Part shown: piece after piece, positions 4,946-11,001 of the stretch
Numbering within the stretch: position 1 is the stretch's first letter
How the letters are laid out: each line of letters begins with the position of its first letter
DNA from: Clostridiales bacterium
Lineage (GTDB): Bacteria > Bacillota > Limnochordia > Darwinibacteriales > B1SED10-159
Assembly: GCA_003551965.1 (NCBI GenBank)
Contig: PUOC01000154.1
Span: forward strand, 1 to 35,600
DNA length: 35,600 nucleotides
Direction of reading: 5' to 3'
Translations under genes and position numbers: made by a program
Notes under the pieces: generated by a model
Told to the model about the DNA's origin: nothing
What the model saw: the letters and a program-made list of their open reading frames with translations, nothing else
The model's database searches: none

Positions 4946-6049
4946 TCAGTGGGAAGCCTCCTTCTTGATTACCATCGCCTGGGCCCAGGACCCCAAAACT
5001 TTCATCTTAAGGCGGTCTTCCCCCGCGAGCCCCAGTTGTTCGCAGGCCCGGGAGAGGGCGCTCGCTTCCGCCGTCAAGAGGACCATCGTTCCGGAGGCCG
5101 TTACTACTCGGTCGAATTCGGTAAGCAGCTGCCGGTACAGCCGCTCGTTAGGCCGCTGCCCCTGGAGATTGTACTGCTTTCCCCAGGGAAGGTTGGCGAC
5201 TAGCGTGTCAATGCAGCCTGCATCCAAGTCAAGGCGCCGGGCATCGCATTGGCGTATGGTGACATTGTCCCGTTTTTCCCTGCGCAGACAGGCCTCCACT
5301 GCTCTCTGCGTCACCCGCACGGCCTCCTGATCCAGGTCACAGCCATAGAGGTGCGAGAAGGGGCCGTACCCAATGCGCTCGGCCACGATGGTGCCCGAAC
5401 CGCACATGGGATCCAGGAAGACATCGCCGGGGCCGGTGTGACTGAGGGCAACCAGCGCCGCAGCCAGTGTGGGCCGCAGAGAGCCCGAGCGTTCCTCGGA
5501 GCGGTAACTGCGCTGGCGGAAGCTGTTGTCTGTCAAGCGCAGGCAGGTGGTGAGGGTGTCATCCTTGAGGAAACCCCAGACCTCAATATCAGCGGGATCC
5601 CGGGGTTTCCAGCGCCGAAAGGCTCCCAGTTTATCTGCGATGGCTGCGGCCGCTTGCTTACGGTGGAGCGCATGATCGCGGTCCTGTTTGACAAACACGG
5701 CAAAGCCGATGTTTTTATTGGGTTTGGCCCCGGGAAAAAGTTCGTTTTTCAGGTGCAGCCCGGCAAAGAGCTGCTCTTGATTCCACCATTTCCCTTTCCT
5801 CTGCAGATCTTTCTCTGCAGCTGCCGGTGCTTTCTCTGCCACGGGAAAGAAAAGGTCTTCCACCGTGCGCAGCCCCAGCAGCTTTGGCACGGCAGCTCTT
5901 TCTATGTCCACAAGGATTAAATCGTGGTTCCGCAGGGTGATGCTATCGCGGACGTGAAACGAAATGCCGCGCTGGCTGAGTTCTTCTAGTGAGGCCCTTT
6001 GGAGGCCGGCAAAACACAAAAGACCGATCCGCTGCTGTGATGGGTTCAT
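4946..6049 (-). CDS. THUMP-domain class I RNA methyltransferase (TrmN/RlmL-like)
   Basis: This 367-residue SAM-dependent methyltransferase probably makes N2-methylguanosine in tRNA or rRNA. The N-terminal half (about 1-175) looks like a ferredoxin-like plus THUMP RNA-binding region (LRTVEDLFFPV; GFAVFVKQDRDHALHRKQ). The Rossmann half follows, with LDPMCGSGT near residue 215 for SAM binding and the catalytic NLPWG near 285, the N-x-P-W/Y form used for exocyclic amino groups. The THUMP plus NLPWG arrangement fits the TrmN/Trm14 or RlmL-like (UPF0020) families; the exact target base is not decidable here. I chose ATG 6049 (MNPSQQR), preceded by AAGGGG, over the tracked 6175 start, whose extension overlaps the divergent promoter. 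It is a single gene on the minus strand. Confidence 0.85.
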   Translation of the reverse strand: MNPSQQRIGLLCFAGLQRASLEELSQRGISFHVRDSITLRNHDLILVDIERAAVPKLLGLRTVEDLFFPVAEKAPAAAEKDLQRKGKWWNQEQLFAGLHLKNELFPGAKPNKNIGFAVFVKQDRDHALHRKQAAAAIADKLGAFRRWKPRDPADIEVWGFLKDDTLTTCLRLTDNSFRQRSYRSEERSGSLRPTLAAALVALSHTGPGDVFLDPMCGSGTIVAERIGYGPFSHLYGCDLDQEAVRVTQRAVEACLRREKRDNVTIRQCDARRLDLDAGCIDTLVANLPWGKQYNLQGQRPNERLYRQLLTEFDRVVTASGTMVLLTAEASALSRACEQLGLAGEDRLKMKVLGSWAQAMVIKKEASH

Positions 6050-6154
6050 GACAAGTCCCCTTCCATACTGTGCACTGTTTTCGTCACGGCCGGCCATATC
6101 CCTGCCCGCCGCTTGCCCTGCCCCACACTGCCTGTCTTTGACGGCTGCGTGGTC

Positions 6155-6184
6155 TTGACAATCCTCGAAGCGCACGGGTATAGT
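6155..6184 (+). promoter_or_regulatory. sigma-A-type promoter for flavodoxin-tetR operon
   Basis: A perfect -35 TTGACA (6155-6160) and -10 TATAGT (6179-6184) are separated by 18 bases, about 30 bases before the flavodoxin start. The downstream TetR regulator may act here, but no clear palindrome was seen. Confidence 0.75.
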
Positions 6185-6215
6185 GAAGTTATGACCAGAA
6201 ACGCTGGGAGGATGG

Positions 6216-6722
6216 ATGTCCGTGAAGACGTTAATAGCCTACGGTACCCGATACGGAGCGGCCGCAGAATGCGCCGCTGCGCTCAAAGAGCGGCTGCCGG
6301 GTGATGTGGATGTGATTCATTTGGCAGAGGGAAGTGCGGAAGCGTCGGAGTATGACCAGGTTATCGTGGGCGGGTCGATCTACATGGGCCAAATCCAATC
6401 CCATGTCAAGAAATTCGTTCAAGGACAGCAGGAAGCACTGCTCTCCCGTCCTTTGGGTTTGTTTCTCTGCTGCGGCCGAACGGATGCATTCGCCGAACAG
6501 TTCCAGAATGCGTTCCCGGAGTCAATGCGGCAGCATGCCCGGCGAGCGGAATGTTTCGGCTATGCCTATTCCCTGGAACGTATGAAGTTCCTGGATCGCT
6601 GGATCTTAAAAGTGGTGGCCAAGGTGGCAAGAAGCGAGCGCAGCCTGGATTTCGGCGCCATAGGCTCCATGGCTGCTCAGTTCTCGTCACAGGGGGGAGG
6701 AACCCATGACAGCACAGCTTGA
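6216..6722 (+). CDS. flavodoxin-domain protein (HemG-like)
   Basis: This 168-residue protein is a flavodoxin-like FMN protein. It opens with the FMN-phosphate loop region TLIAYGTRYGAAAE, followed by DQVIVGGSIYMGQIQSHVKKF, a pattern shared with the flavodoxin-type protoporphyrinogen oxidase/menaquinone-dependent HemG group. It could be a quinone-linked oxidoreductase or a simple electron carrier; no haem gene is nearby, so the protoporphyrinogen role is not supported. The ATG at 6216 follows GGGAGGATGG. The 3' end overlaps the tetR gene by 17 bases, so the two are translationally coupled and probably co-regulated. Confidence 0.8.
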   Translation: MSVKTLIAYGTRYGAAAECAAALKERLPGDVDVIHLAEGSAEASEYDQVIVGGSIYMGQIQSHVKKFVQGQQEALLSRPLGLFLCCGRTDAFAEQFQNAFPESMRQHARRAECFGYAYSLERMKFLDRWILKVVAKVARSERSLDFGAIGSMAAQFSSQGGGTHDSTA

Positions 6723-7320
6723 CCGCGGGCAGATAAGGGAACAGTTTATTGCCAGCGCCAAGCGGATTATGGACAATAGAGGGCCGCAGGCGGTCAGCGT
6801 GCGCTCTGTGGCCAAAGAGGCGGGGTACTCCTATGCTACGATTTATAACTATTTCGCCGATATCTACCATCTTTTGTGGCATGTCAGTCTGCAGTACCGC
6901 CAGGAAATAGCGGCTTACATGCAGGACTGGGAGCGGCATCTCAAGGCCGAATATGATGGCCCTGCCCTGATAGGAGAGCTCTTTGCCGTCTACGCCGATT
7001 ACTTTCTGCGGCATCCCGCCGTATTTCAGTTCCTTTTTCTGTGTTCCATCGCACAGTCTCCGGAGGAGCAGCGTCCGCAGACGACGCGTCCATCGCTTTT
7101 GCAGCAGCTGACGAGACTCTTGGATGACTGTGCCGAAAAGGGCTATGTGCCGAAAACAGACGTGGAGATGATGGCCAGCTGTTTGGACAATATGCTGCAG
7201 GGCATCCTTACGTCGTATTTTGCCAACAGCCATGTCATGGATGCTAAACATCTTTTCCAACAGGTGCGGAGCCATACCGCGTACCTGTTCCGAAAAACGG
7301 CTTCGCAAGGAGTCTTATGA
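6706..7320 (+). CDS. TetR/AcrR-family transcriptional regulator
   Basis: This 204-residue protein has the TetR layout: an N-terminal helix-turn-helix at about residues 9-55 (VSVRSVAKEAGYSYATIYNYF is the recognition core), then an all-helical ligand and dimer domain. It is a DNA-binding repressor, probably of its own operon with the flavodoxin gene, because the two genes overlap by 17 bases and share the promoter at 6155-6184. The ATG at 6706 lies inside the flavodoxin gene and is preceded by GGGGGGAGG. The inducer is unknown. Confidence 0.88.
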   Translation: MTAQLDRGQIREQFIASAKRIMDNRGPQAVSVRSVAKEAGYSYATIYNYFADIYHLLWHVSLQYRQEIAAYMQDWERHLKAEYDGPALIGELFAVYADYFLRHPAVFQFLFLCSIAQSPEEQRPQTTRPSLLQQLTRLLDDCAEKGYVPKTDVEMMASCLDNMLQGILTSYFANSHVMDAKHLFQQVRSHTAYLFRKTASQGVL

Positions 7321-7444
7321 TGGCGCCTGCGGACCTGCCCACTGTTTGACGGACCGGAGAACCGTTCTGTGCGGGCCGCGTCCGGGGTTTTCTACTTGTT
7401 GTTGCCTTGGGCGGCAGGGGTCTTTGGTTTGCGGGCGAAACGGC

Positions 7445-7482
7445 CGACGCGGACGGGTGTATAAAACGCCCTGTCCGCGTCG
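7445..7482. terminator. strong bidirectional hairpin
   Basis: CGACGCGGAC and GTCCGCGTCG form a perfect 10-bp outer stem that can continue inward through GGG and CCC around a TATAAAA loop. It sits between the convergent tetR gene and the last gene of the ECF sigma operon, so it can end transcription from both sides, although the T-run is poor. Confidence 0.6.
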
Positions 7483-7493
7483 TTCTATCGCTG

Positions 7494-7739
7494 CTACTGC
7501 TTGGTTTTGTGCCGCCGTTTGGTCAGATGAACACCGCCGGCGGTCCAGTTTTTGCCTATTTCCCTATAGGTCTGGGCCAACTCCCGGGCGTGGCCTGGTT
7601 TGATACCGCTCTGCCGCAGCTCTCGGTAGAAGGCCCTTTGGCCGCTTCTGCCGAGAAAGCGCAGTTTGGCCAGTTCGGAGCCAACGCGCAGGGCAGCCCG
7701 GGATGACTGATGGATGATCCGCCATCCTGTGTGCAGCAT
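7494..7739 (-). CDS. small basic protein, last gene of ECF sigma operon
   Basis: This 81-residue protein is rich in Arg and Lys, with no membrane segment or signal peptide. I do not recognise a named family. Its middle, RAFYRELRQSGIKPGHARELAQTY, closely matches a segment of the gene just upstream (GAFYKELLANDMDPEEAVALTKAY), so the two small proteins appear related. Its ATG overlaps the upstream stop as TAATG (7737-7741), which implies translational coupling. The family and its function are unknown; a role linked to the sigma factor is inferred only from the operon. Confidence 0.7.
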   Translation of the reverse strand: MLHTGWRIIHQSSRAALRVGSELAKLRFLGRSGQRAFYRELRQSGIKPGHARELAQTYREIGKNWTAGGVHLTKRRHKTKQ

Positions 7740-8008
7740 TATCGATCACTCTTGATGTTCATGTTATGCGGAATCTGCTGCAGGGTGTTCATGTAAGCTT
7801 TCGTCAGTGCAACGGCTTCTTCGGGGTCCATGTCATTGGCCAAAAGCTCTTTGTAAAACGCACCGACAGCCTGACCCATTTCTTGTCCTGCTTCTTTGGT
7901 GTAAAAGACGTCCCGGATTCCTTTCAGCAGCGCGGGAATTTTCTCTGCCACTGCATCAAGCAGTTCCGGAATCTGTTCCAGTTCTGGGTCGCGATGTTTC
8001 TCTGTCAT
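7739..8008 (-). CDS. small helical protein in ECF sigma operon
   Basis: This 89-residue acidic, alpha-helical protein has no transmembrane segment. Residues about 45-72 carry the motif GAFYKELLANDMDPEEAVALTKAY, which is repeated in related form in the next gene. The ATG at 8008 is preceded by AAGGAGG with a gap of about 10 bases. It lies 24 bases after the anti-sigma gene and overlaps the next start by one base. No function is recognised; its place in the operon suggests it is co-produced with the ECF sigma factor. Confidence 0.75.
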   Translation of the reverse strand: MTEKHRDPELEQIPELLDAVAEKIPALLKGIRDVFYTKEAGQEMGQAVGAFYKELLANDMDPEEAVALTKAYMNTLQQIPHNMNIKSDR

Positions 8009-8032
8009 CCCAGCCTTACCTCCTTGTCTTTC

Positions 8033-8347
8033 CTAGTCGAAAATTTTAACCGGCAGCCACTGCCGCAATTGGCTGTAGATCAGGCTATACACTTGGTCAC
8101 GTACTCCGGCTTTGACCGCGTCTAGGATGGTTTCCCTGCGGATCTGCCGTTCTAGGCTCTGGTAGGTGCGCTGCAGCGAAACCGGAGCTTCCCGGGACAG
8201 TTCCCGGCGCAGCGCCCTTATTTCGCAAAGGTCTTCGCTGCACACGCCGCAGTGAACAATGTGTGCTTTGACCAATTTTGCTTCATCAGCGGCAAGCCCA
8301 TGGGGGTACCAGGGCAGCAGTTCTTGGACGGTCTCACAGGCCGGCAT
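8033..8347 (-). CDS. zinc-finger (ZAS) anti-sigma factor, soluble
   Basis: This 104-residue protein binds and probably inhibits the ECF sigma factor encoded just upstream. It has the N-terminal zinc anti-sigma motif H-x3-C-x2-C (HIVHCGVC, near residues 29-36), preceded by a helix that typically contacts sigma. There is no transmembrane helix, unlike many membrane-anchored anti-sigmas, so it is expected to be cytosolic and might sense redox or metal state as RsrA does; that is inference. The ATG at 8347 is preferred over the tracked GTG at 8356, because GAGG lies 8 bases upstream of it. It overlaps the sigma gene by 14 bases. Confidence 0.85.
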   Translation of the reverse strand: MPACETVQELLPWYPHGLAADEAKLVKAHIVHCGVCSEDLCEIRALRRELSREAPVSLQRTYQSLERQIRRETILDAVKAGVRDQVYSLIYSQLRQWLPVKIFD

Positions 8348-8861
8348 AATGGTCACCTCGCTTCCATGCCTGCTGCAGCACTCTGCGGCAGTGGTACATC
8401 CTGCTTTTGACAGTGCCCACGGGAATCTCCATGACCTGGCTTATCTCACGATAAGAAAGGCCGCATATGAATGTGAGCAGGAATACGTCCCTTTGAGACG
8501 AAGGAAGCTTGGCAAGCTCTTGTTCCAAGAACGGATGCTGCCACGGTTCTTCGCTGCAGCCAACCTGCTGCAGCTGATCATCGGTCACCAGCGGCTGCTG
8601 CTTCCTCAAGGCATCGATGAGTTTGTTGCGGGCTACCGTGAAAAGCCAGGCTTTGATGGAGCCTTCCCGCAGCGTAGGTGCTTGGCGCCAAAGGGCAAAG
8701 AACGTTTCTTGGATGATGTCTTCGATCAGCGCCGGGTCCTTCAGTTTCGCTGCGCACCACTTCGCTAAGGAAGGAGCGTGGCGGTGGAACAGCACATTGA
8801 AGGCGGCATCATCCCCGGCTGCTGCCTGTGCTGTCAGGTACAGATCGTCGCTTGTCTCCAT
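8334..8861 (-). CDS. ECF-type RNA polymerase sigma factor
   Basis: This 175-residue sigma-70 family protein has only regions 2 and 4, as expected for the extracytoplasmic-function group. Region 2 holds DIIQETFFALWRQ (residues about 48-60) and a following RNKLIDALRK. Region 4 holds LPSSQRDVFLLTFICGLSYREISQVMEIPVGTVKSR, the -35 recognition helix-turn-helix. It directs RNA polymerase to a small regulon. It heads a four-gene minus-strand operon with its anti-sigma and two small proteins. The ATG at 8861 is preceded by GGGAGG. A candidate self-recognised promoter lies just upstream. Confidence 0.93.
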   Translation of the reverse strand: METSDDLYLTAQAAAGDDAAFNVLFHRHAPSLAKWCAAKLKDPALIEDIIQETFFALWRQAPTLREGSIKAWLFTVARNKLIDALRKQQPLVTDDQLQQVGCSEEPWQHPFLEQELAKLPSSQRDVFLLTFICGLSYREISQVMEIPVGTVKSRMYHCRRVLQQAWKRGDHYAGL

Positions 8862-8887
8862 CGCTCCAACCTCCCTTCACTCATTGT

Positions 8888-8913
8888 ATCGTGCAAGGCC
8901 GGGATTCGGTTCA
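8888..8913 (-). promoter_or_regulatory. candidate ECF autoregulatory promoter
   Basis: On the minus strand, TGAACC (8913-8908), a 16-base spacer and CGAT (8891-8888) resemble the ECF sigma promoter form TGAAAC-N16-CGT. It would start transcription about 20 bases before the sigma ribosome binding region. Both elements are imperfect. Confidence 0.4.
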
Positions 8914-8973
8914 AAGAAAAATGCCTTTTGACCAAAACCATGTTCCAGTGAACAAACGAAAGGATGTGCTTTT

Positions 8974-9816
8974 ATGCGCTCGGTAAGACGAATGGTGCGC
9001 GGCCGTGAAATACGAGAAGGCGCTGGGGTGAAGCTGAGACGGCTCTTCGCCGATGCATTGGCCGAGGAGTTTGATCCGTTTCTTCTGTTCGATGCCTTTG
9101 ACTCCACCGATCCCGAGGAGTATCTGCCGGGCTTTCCCTGGCATCCCCATCGGGGCATTGAAACGGTCACCTATCTGCTGTCCGGTGTGGTGGAGCACGG
9201 AGACAGCCTCGGCAACCGGGGGACGATCGCCTCTGGGTGCTGCCAGTGGATGACCGCGGGCCGGGGAATCGTGCATCAAGAGATGCCCCAGGCCCACGAA
9301 CACCTGCACGGCATTCAGCTGTGGGTGAACCTTCCCGCAGACAAGAAGATGACAGAACCGGTATACCGGGATCTGCAGCCGGAGGACATGCCGCTGGCAA
9401 ATACCGCCGCCGCATCCGTTCGGGTGTTGGCCGGGAGCTTTGCGGACACGCACGGGCCTGTGGAAGGCATAGCCGTGGCGCCCACCTTTCTTGATGTGAA
9501 CGTAGAGCCGCATGGCTCCTTTGTCTTTGACCCTGAAGACCGTATGACTGTCTTTGCCTATGTCTTTTCCGGGAATGGCTGCTTTGCAGCGGACCAGGAT
9601 CGGGGTGAAAAGGGCGATATCGTCCTTTGGGACCAGCAGCAGGGGGAGATTGCCATTGAAGCAGGCGCATCGGGCCTCCGGTTTCTGCTCTGCGCCGGAC
9701 GGCCGCTGCGTGAACCGATTGTGTGGGGCGGACCCATTGTCATGAATACGCGGAAACAGATTGAAGAAGCCTTTGCCCAACTGGACGAAGGTACGTTTCT
9801 CGAACAGCGCCCGTGA
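8974..9816 (+). CDS. pirin-family cupin protein
   Basis: This 280-residue protein is a pirin, a bicupin whose N-terminal barrel binds one metal. The hallmark segment HPHRGIETVTY (near residues 57-67) provides metal ligands, followed by the HGD and AGRGIVHQEMP motifs with further His and Glu ligands. Pirins are reported as quercetin dioxygenases, stress proteins or transcription cofactors; which applies is unknown. The ATG at 8974 follows AAAGGATG at a reasonable distance. It is divergent from the ECF sigma operon and precedes the radical SAM gene by 60 bases, with no terminator between them. Confidence 0.9.
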   Translation: MRSVRRMVRGREIREGAGVKLRRLFADALAEEFDPFLLFDAFDSTDPEEYLPGFPWHPHRGIETVTYLLSGVVEHGDSLGNRGTIASGCCQWMTAGRGIVHQEMPQAHEHLHGIQLWVNLPADKKMTEPVYRDLQPEDMPLANTAAASVRVLAGSFADTHGPVEGIAVAPTFLDVNVEPHGSFVFDPEDRMTVFAYVFSGNGCFAADQDRGEKGDIVLWDQQQGEIAIEAGASGLRFLLCAGRPLREPIVWGGPIVMNTRKQIEEAFAQLDEGTFLEQRP

Positions 9817-9876
9817 GGGCGGCCGGTAGGGCAGCTGCTTGGGTGCATGGATTTTTTGCCGAATGGAGTGCCGGAC

Positions 9877-11001
9877 ATGGCTGAAGTATATGACAACAGC
9901 ATATCGGTGGCCTTCGACATGGCAGGCTGCCCGCAGCGCTGCCGCCACTGCTATCTGGGCCATCCCGCCCATCAGCCGATGGACGCGCAAGAAGTGATGG
10001 CTGCCTTTGAACAGATCCAGAGTTGGGGGCGGAGCAGCGGCATTGACATTGGCTTTCTGCAGCCCCATTTCCGCGAACCCCATGAAGCGCCAGACTACCA
10101 GGAATTGTATTCGTGCTGCGACCGAGTAAACGGCCAGGTCGTCGAAGTGGAGCGGCAGTTCGAGCTGCTCAATCTGGAGCGGATATCCTCGGATCCGCAG
10201 TATCTGCCCTGGGTAAAGCAGCGCGGGATCCAACGCTGCCAGTTGAAGCTGTTTGGCATGGAGGCAGTCAACAACTTCTTCTATGGACGGGCAGATGCCC
10301 ATGATTTGATCTTGGCCGCAGTGGAAGGCCTCTTGGCCCACGAAATCGTGCCTCGCTGGCAGATATATCTTAACACCGAAGGTGCTGCTGCACTGGACGA
10401 AGTCTGGCAGCTGGCCCTCGACATGTGCCTGTTTGAGCGGGTGGAGGCGCTGGGTGAGGAGTTCAATATCCATTGCATGCCCTATGACGCCGATGGAAGC
10501 GGCTACTGCAATCGCCGCTTCCGCATGCGGGCCGGACAGGAATGCTTCATTCCTAAGCCTCTCGATGCCGCTACCCAAAGGCACTTTCAGCAGACCATGG
10601 GCACCGATTTCCGCTTGGATACGGAAGCGGAGTTATACAGGAAATTTCTGCACTGCCGCTCAGCGGGTGGGACGGCGCCGGCCAGCCACTGGCTGTGGTT
10701 TTTCGTGACCTCCGATTGGAATGTATACCCCAATCTGATGGGACCGGCACCGTGGTGGCGCTTGGGCAATCTCCAGGAAGAACCGTTCGGCCGTATCGTG
10801 GACCGCTATGTCCATGACGAGTGTCTGGGACTGCAGGTGTTGAACCAATGGAGCCCGGCGGAACTGGCCCGGAACTACGGTGATCCCCAAGGAAGACAGC
10901 TGTTTTTTCCTCCCGGCCAAGTTCTGGATTATTGGATCGGCCGAGCCTGCCGCGACCTGTACCAGCGGGGAGCGGGTCCGCAGCCGCCCCTGCCGCGATG
11001 A
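9877..11001 (+). CDS. radical SAM protein of unknown function
   Basis: This 374-residue protein carries a CPQRCRHCYLG motif near its N-terminus (Cys 18, 22 and 25), the C-x3-C-x2-C site that holds a 4Fe-4S cluster and cleaves S-adenosylmethionine. The segment after it (PMDAQEVMAAFEQIQSWG) fits the TIM-barrel fold. The C-terminal region has further Cys residues (ECFIPK, HCRSAGG, DECLGLQ) and a conserved-looking WNVYPNLMGPAPWWRLGNL stretch reminiscent of SPASM-type substrate regions, but I do not recognise the subfamily. No obvious peptide substrate gene is adjacent. I chose ATG 9877 over 9847 because GGAGTG lies six bases upstream. A strong hairpin follows the stop. Confidence 0.82.
   Translation: MAEVYDNSISVAFDMAGCPQRCRHCYLGHPAHQPMDAQEVMAAFEQIQSWGRSSGIDIGFLQPHFREPHEAPDYQELYSCCDRVNGQVVEVERQFELLNLERISSDPQYLPWVKQRGIQRCQLKLFGMEAVNNFFYGRADAHDLILAAVEGLLAHEIVPRWQIYLNTEGAAALDEVWQLALDMCLFERVEALGEEFNIHCMPYDADGSGYCNRRFRMRAGQECFIPKPLDAATQRHFQQTMGTDFRLDTEAELYRKFLHCRSAGGTAPASHWLWFFVTSDWNVYPNLMGPAPWWRLGNLQEEPFGRIVDRYVHDECLGLQVLNQWSPAELARNYGDPQGRQLFFPPGQVLDYWIGRACRDLYQRGAGPQPPLPR

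Follow-up and report, generated by a model that had tools for sequence, protein, structure and literature searches.

The operon and its two small proteins

Contig PUOC01000154.1 of a Clostridiales bacterium (assembly GCA_003551965.1), assigned to the order Darwinibacteriales of the Bacillota, was analyzed over a stretch of 35,600 nucleotides, hereafter the window. It contains a minus-strand operon in which four genes follow one another from 5′ to 3′: an extracytoplasmic function (ECF) sigma factor, an anti-sigma factor of the zf-HC2 type and, third and fourth, two small proteins that we call A and B (Table 1). A preliminary description of the locus had placed both small open reading frames (ORFs) in an ECF sigma operon, and they were found there at the stated coordinates. 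The genes are tightly packed: The start of the anti-sigma ORF overlaps the 3′ end of the sigma ORF, and the ATG of B shares one base with the stop codon (TAA) of A (TAATG).

Table 1. Features of the four-gene operon, in window coordinates.
Feature	Position	Strand	Basis or remark
Candidate terminator, G+C-rich inverted repeat just past B	7446..7481	.	read by eye from the sequence
Protein B, 81 aa, basic; amphipathic N-terminal segment, then hairpin	7494..7739	-	
Shared hairpin motif of B, residues 35-58, RAFYRELRQSGIKPGHARELAQTY	7566..7637	-	hhalign A vs B
Protein A, 89 aa, acidic, helical, soluble	7739..8008	-	homologues likewise third in operon
Shared hairpin motif of A, residues 49-72, GAFYKELLANDMDPEEAVALTKAY	7793..7864	-	hhalign A vs B
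Anti-sigma factor, 107 aa, zf-HC2 with Hx3Cx2C	8033..8356	-	PF13490, 23.1 bits vs cut-off 22.2
ECF sigma factor, 175 aa	8334..8861	-	Pfam Sigma70_r2 E 5e-18, Sigma70_r4_2 E 4e-15, above cut-off
ECF-type promoter TGAACC-N16-CGATA, probably autoregulatory	8887..8913	-	conserved motif upstream of the sigma gene

The two proteins had been described as sharing a motif that aligns without gaps, and as possible divergent copies of each other. The gapless alignment was reproduced with 9 identical and 13 positive positions out of 24. Comparison of the two window proteins gave a BLASTP E of 8e-5 and a Smith–Waterman score that 3 in 5000 shuffled versions of B also attained, so that the match within this pair alone is significant but modest. 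Comparison of the family profiles gave much stronger signals: Alignment of 18 A proteins with 19 B proteins by hhalign yielded a score of 42.9 (E 6.8e-8) and alignment of the A profile with 37 B proteins a score of 50.8 (E 1.6e-9). For comparison, the highest score among 100 B profiles with shuffled columns was 16.4, and reversing the profile gave 10.0. When the B profile was run through 12 whole genomes, it matched exactly two places in 11 of them, namely B and the adjoining A, and four in the twelfth, which harbors two copies of the operon. Judged by these family profiles and the whole-genome searches, A and B are homologous across a helical hairpin of about 30 residues, and a coincidence of common helix composition does not account for the match; the suspicion of divergent copies was thus well founded.

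Outside the hairpin the two proteins differ. A has a net charge of −6 and an isoelectric point of 4.8, B a net charge of +14 and an isoelectric point of 11.9, in agreement with the earlier characterization of one protein as acidic and the other as strongly basic; the combination of an acidic A with a basic B recurs in 19/19 loci of the order. A carries an acidic N-terminal helix, whereas B begins with a hydrophobic or amphipathic segment that is followed by basic residues, with arginines succeeding the N-terminal helix. The maximum hydropathy of B has a median of 1.38 for the order and of 1.82 for the archaeal homologues (see below). Because B is basic and combines such a helix with the arginines behind it, it would be expected to lie against the membrane on the cytoplasmic side.

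Searches against existing resources returned no credible relatives: A and B have no family match in Pfam and NCBIfam and nothing convincing in PHROGs and PADLOC, no solved structure in the PDB survived a test as a relative of either, and A had no match at E 0.01 in a plasmid collection. A single-sequence search with B retrieved only the window, and its relatives emerged with profiles; in the window's own genome the B profile located B with an E of 1.3e-18.

The candidate terminator lies between the operon and a convergent TetR gene, which, together with a flavodoxin-like gene, occupies the opposite strand beyond B; a pirin gene is found upstream of the sigma gene. An Rfam search of window positions 6000-10000 gave no match. 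Further away, at 9847-11001, the window encodes a 384-aa protein that resembles a radical SAM enzyme by its CPQRCRHCYLGHP motif and has no Pfam match at E 0.001.

Distribution and pairing of A and B

The expectation that homologues of the two proteins co-occur with ECF sigma operons was borne out in Bacillota. A is present in 19 of 61 genomes searched, the window's own included, and in these loci it is the third gene after sigma and anti-sigma, with a B-like gene directly behind it; a weak match in a 903-aa frame from another class (L026) was taken as chance. In a scan of 399 genomes of the phylum, two separate searches detected A in 17 genomes and B in the identical 17, apart from one weak A match in a 395-aa frame that was likewise attributed to chance. 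Within the Paenibacillaceae, A occurs in 3 of 105 genomes; Paenibacillus doosanensis is an example of a carrier in culture. Over the Bacillota loci taken together, the order sigma–anti-sigma–A–B is kept in about 36/38; the exceptions are genome G655, where A–B stands behind a molybdopterin oxidoreductase without a sigma gene, and genome G072, where it lies among amidohydrolase-like genes.

Several loci deviate in their details. Genome G019 has two complete sigma–anti-sigma–A–B operons (L010 and L027; L030 and L040 in the scan), each with its own TGAACC-N16-CGAC promoter. In genome G205, two B-like genes (L086, 201-701 and 1120-1404) follow one A, which suggests a local duplication of B. The molybdopterin oxidoreductase of G655 appears to be split into two overlapping frames (L214:5965-8529), which may reflect a frameshift or a sequencing error. 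An apparent fusion of A to the anti-sigma factor in L089 was rejected as most likely an artefact of the ORF start, since a separate, overlapping ORF in another frame lies between sigma and A.

Two small, overlapping genes for products of opposite charge, the acidic one first and the basic one second, under autoregulation and with so sporadic a distribution as in the Paenibacillaceae, could also be read as a toxin–antitoxin-like pair. We consider this very improbable: A and B are homologous to each other, unlike typical partners of this kind, none of the four family collections searched above gave a match to a toxin, antitoxin or defence family, the plasmid search was equally empty, and the association with the sigma/anti-sigma pair is stable.

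The preliminary description had proposed that the two proteins pair with each other or act with the sigma/anti-sigma pair, and had suggested complex modeling. The first proposal is supported by the near-invariant adjacency of the genes, by their occurrence in the same set of genomes and by their co-divergence: Over 24 loci the distances of A and B co-vary with r 0.72, compared with at most 0.22 after permutation, a correlation to which shared genome ancestry contributes. Some loci carry A and B in one frame, so that natural DNA, with stops read as glycine, gives A–B chains for AlphaFold2. The tandem chain from homologous loci was modeled with a mean predicted local distance difference test score (pLDDT) of 77.6 and a predicted template modeling score (pTM) of 0.67, with hairpins at about residues 36-80 for A and 111-149 for B and block pLDDT values up to 96-98; a Foldseek search of the PDB with this model returned nothing significant. 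An anti-sigma–A chain built likewise reached a pTM of 0.45, from a shallower alignment with only four paired rows. The contrast between the two models favors a predicted A–B unit, and a physical heteromer of A and B is likely. Of the second proposal, what stands is co-expression with the sigma/anti-sigma pair from a single sigma-type promoter; the low confidence of the anti-sigma–A model lends it nothing further.

A scan of genome contigs extended the family beyond Bacteria: A followed by B, without any sigma gene, occurs in about 25 loci that bear the label Candidatus Bathyarchaeota or uncultured archaeon. Most derive from metagenome-assembled genomes, and the pattern is also seen in several chromosomes labelled complete (CP0706xx-CP0708xx records). 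The archaeal pairs form a single clade (support 100/98). In 22 of the 25 loci the pair adjoins a homologous gene, which encodes either a protein of about 150 aa or a larger relative of this protein with a KaiC domain. The small neighbor is predicted to consist of a coiled-coil followed by a winged-helix-like part, a label that derives from sub-threshold Pfam hits and reading by eye. In the larger proteins of about 411-424 aa (L046:987-2261, L053:2314-3588, L069:5594-6829), the N-terminal part of this neighbor is joined to a KaiC-type ATPase domain, which in the L046 protein matches PF06745 with an E of 7e-12.

Since Bathyarchaeota and two Bacillota loci have A–B without sigma, the pair constitutes a separate module and is not strictly a sigma accessory, and its presence in archaea argues for a function that belongs to the pair itself. 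One may go further and regard A–B as an independent module, for example a chaperone or scaffold linked to the membrane, which is coupled to whatever regulator is present, be it the ECF sigma factor in Bacillota or the winged-helix-like protein in Bathyarchaeota, with sigma providing mere control. The strongly supported clade of sigma-less archaeal pairs with their recurrent neighbor speaks for this, as do the positions of A–B in G655 and G072. The retention of the sigma pair in nearly all Bacillota loci, however, points to dependence and not to capture by chance, and the regulator assigned to the archaeal loci has the sub-threshold basis just mentioned. We consider this explanation, which overlaps with the one favored below, improbable.

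Promoter, anti-sigma factor and the role of A–B

Upstream of the sigma gene, the element TGAAC[CT]-N15/17-CGA[CT] was found in 16 of 19 loci, compared with 0.11 expected from shuffled sequence, and the exact form with N16 and CGAC in 13 of 19 (0.004 expected); for two of the three loci in which it was missed (L074, L079), the assigned start of the sigma ORF probably lies too far upstream. The operon is thus probably autoregulated by its own sigma factor. When 37 genomes of the order were searched strictly, the exact element was recovered at the operons, the remaining N16 copies lying mostly within reading frames. A slightly looser element gave 11 matches in the window's genome against 11 for a reversed control, that is, no excess. 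In these 37 genomes and that of the window no regulon beyond the operon was seen, exact copies elsewhere being at chance level. Because no other copy of the promoter rises above chance in the genome, the output of the switch is likely to be A–B, probably the only one that can be detected for this operon.

The anti-sigma factor corresponds to class I, whose domain is defined by Hx3Cx2C (PMC7406223): The window encodes a PF13490 protein adjacent to sigma, and zincless homologues occur in the order. The sigma protein itself has the composition of an ECF factor, with regions 2 and 4 only. No strong transmembrane segment is apparent in the window's anti-sigma factor (maximum 19-residue hydropathy 0.87), and across loci the maximum hydropathy ranges from 0.44 to 1.8 with a median of 1.13. 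The window's protein has kept Hx3Cx2C; its relatives in the order have lost the zinc motif, and their signal is therefore unlikely to be zinc–thiol redox.

These properties could also mean that A–B is the sensor: A membrane complex of A and B would bind the soluble anti-sigma factor and keep it on sigma until the complex is altered by a redox or envelope signal, and production of A–B from the sigma promoter would constitute negative feedback. An anti-sigma factor without a clear transmembrane segment needs another input, loss of the zinc motif in the order relatives removes the usual redox input of soluble anti-sigmas, and the adjacency of the four genes fits. On the other side, the anti-sigma–A chain adopted no confident joint fold, although its alignment had few paired rows, and the archaeal A–B exists without any anti-sigma factor. 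We regard a sensor role as rather unlikely.

The reading we favor, while giving it slightly less than an even chance as a whole, is a self-regulated four-gene operon with a membrane-surface A–B heteromer as output and effector. A signal would relieve the soluble class I anti-sigma factor and free sigma, which would then read its own TGAACC-N16-CGAC promoter and thereby supply more sigma, anti-sigma, A and B. The hairpins of A and B would pack together to form the heteromer, the N-terminal helix and the arginines of B would place it at the cytoplasmic membrane face, and the complex would serve there as effector and would probably damp or tune the response through the anti-sigma factor. Its parts differ in strength: The membrane-surface site is somewhat probable, an effector role as opposed to that of a sensor only is evenly balanced, an action mainly on the envelope falls a little short of that, and direct contact with the anti-sigma factor appears doubtful.

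Several observations weigh against this reading. The N-terminus of the window's B is weakly hydrophobic (0.22), so that this protein may have lost membrane contact or may achieve it through an amphipathic helix. This sigma factor does not govern the pair in any of the archaea, nor in two loci of the Bacillota (L085/L215, L186/L214). The AlphaFold2 chains are natural read-throughs with shallow alignments, in which the linkage biases toward contact and the interface itself was not seen. Finally, a degenerate sigma regulon may escape a strict motif search. On a wider scale, A and B could represent a new two-subunit family of Bacteria and Archaea, in which hairpin homologues of opposite charge act as a membrane-surface heteromer that is linked to unrelated regulators of transcription: in Bacillota an autoregulated ECF switch without any other target, in Bathyarchaeota a winged-helix-like regulator. 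We advance this with reserve, as a conjecture that falls somewhat short of even odds.

Comparison with known systems

Three known families bear some likeness to A or B. DUF1641 (PF07849) comprises YjgD/YrhD, which adjoin formate dehydrogenases; its helical motif superficially resembles that of A–B, and the one pair behind a molybdopterin oxidoreductase prompted us to consider a kinship, which was rejected as the hhalign profile score of 15.7 lay below that of the best shuffle (20.7). Among PDB sequences, the B profile matches 26 residues of human COMMD4 with a whole-sequence E of 6e-6 and a best-stretch i-E of about 9e-4, which suggested a kinship with the COMMD HN domain (PF21672). The match covers one hairpin, and PF21672 finds neither A nor B in 19 carrier genomes; kinship was dismissed and the resemblance is probably convergent. 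The N-terminal domain of RsbU (PF08673) weakly matches the hairpin of the window's A (E 0.18, 12.5 bits against a cut-off of 25.5) and does so in 1 of 18 family members, so that membership was not adopted.

The sigma/anti-sigma half of the operon is a known kind of system, and an ECF group number for this sigma factor may already exist. In common with the SigW/RsiW-type systems of B. subtilis, it has the Sigma70_r2/r4 architecture, an Hx3Cx2C anti-sigma factor next to sigma and an ECF promoter of the autoregulatory type; with GAAC in the −35 and CGAC in the −10 region, this promoter is similar to those of SigX and SigW. It departs from these systems in that its anti-sigma factor lacks a clear transmembrane helix, that genes for A and B, neither of which falls into a named family, follow in the operon, and that no further regulon was detected. 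We found no description of the operon or of the A–B family in the openly accessible literature searched; as far as the libraries and papers covered show, the family and its role as sole visible output of the operon are undescribed. ECF sigma factors usually activate a set of target genes. Here, the sole promoter of this type seen above chance is that of the operon itself, so that the switch seems to exist entirely for two small proteins without a name. Finding their function would explain both an uncharacterised module that Bacteria and Archaea share and a class of ECF operons to which no output has been assigned.
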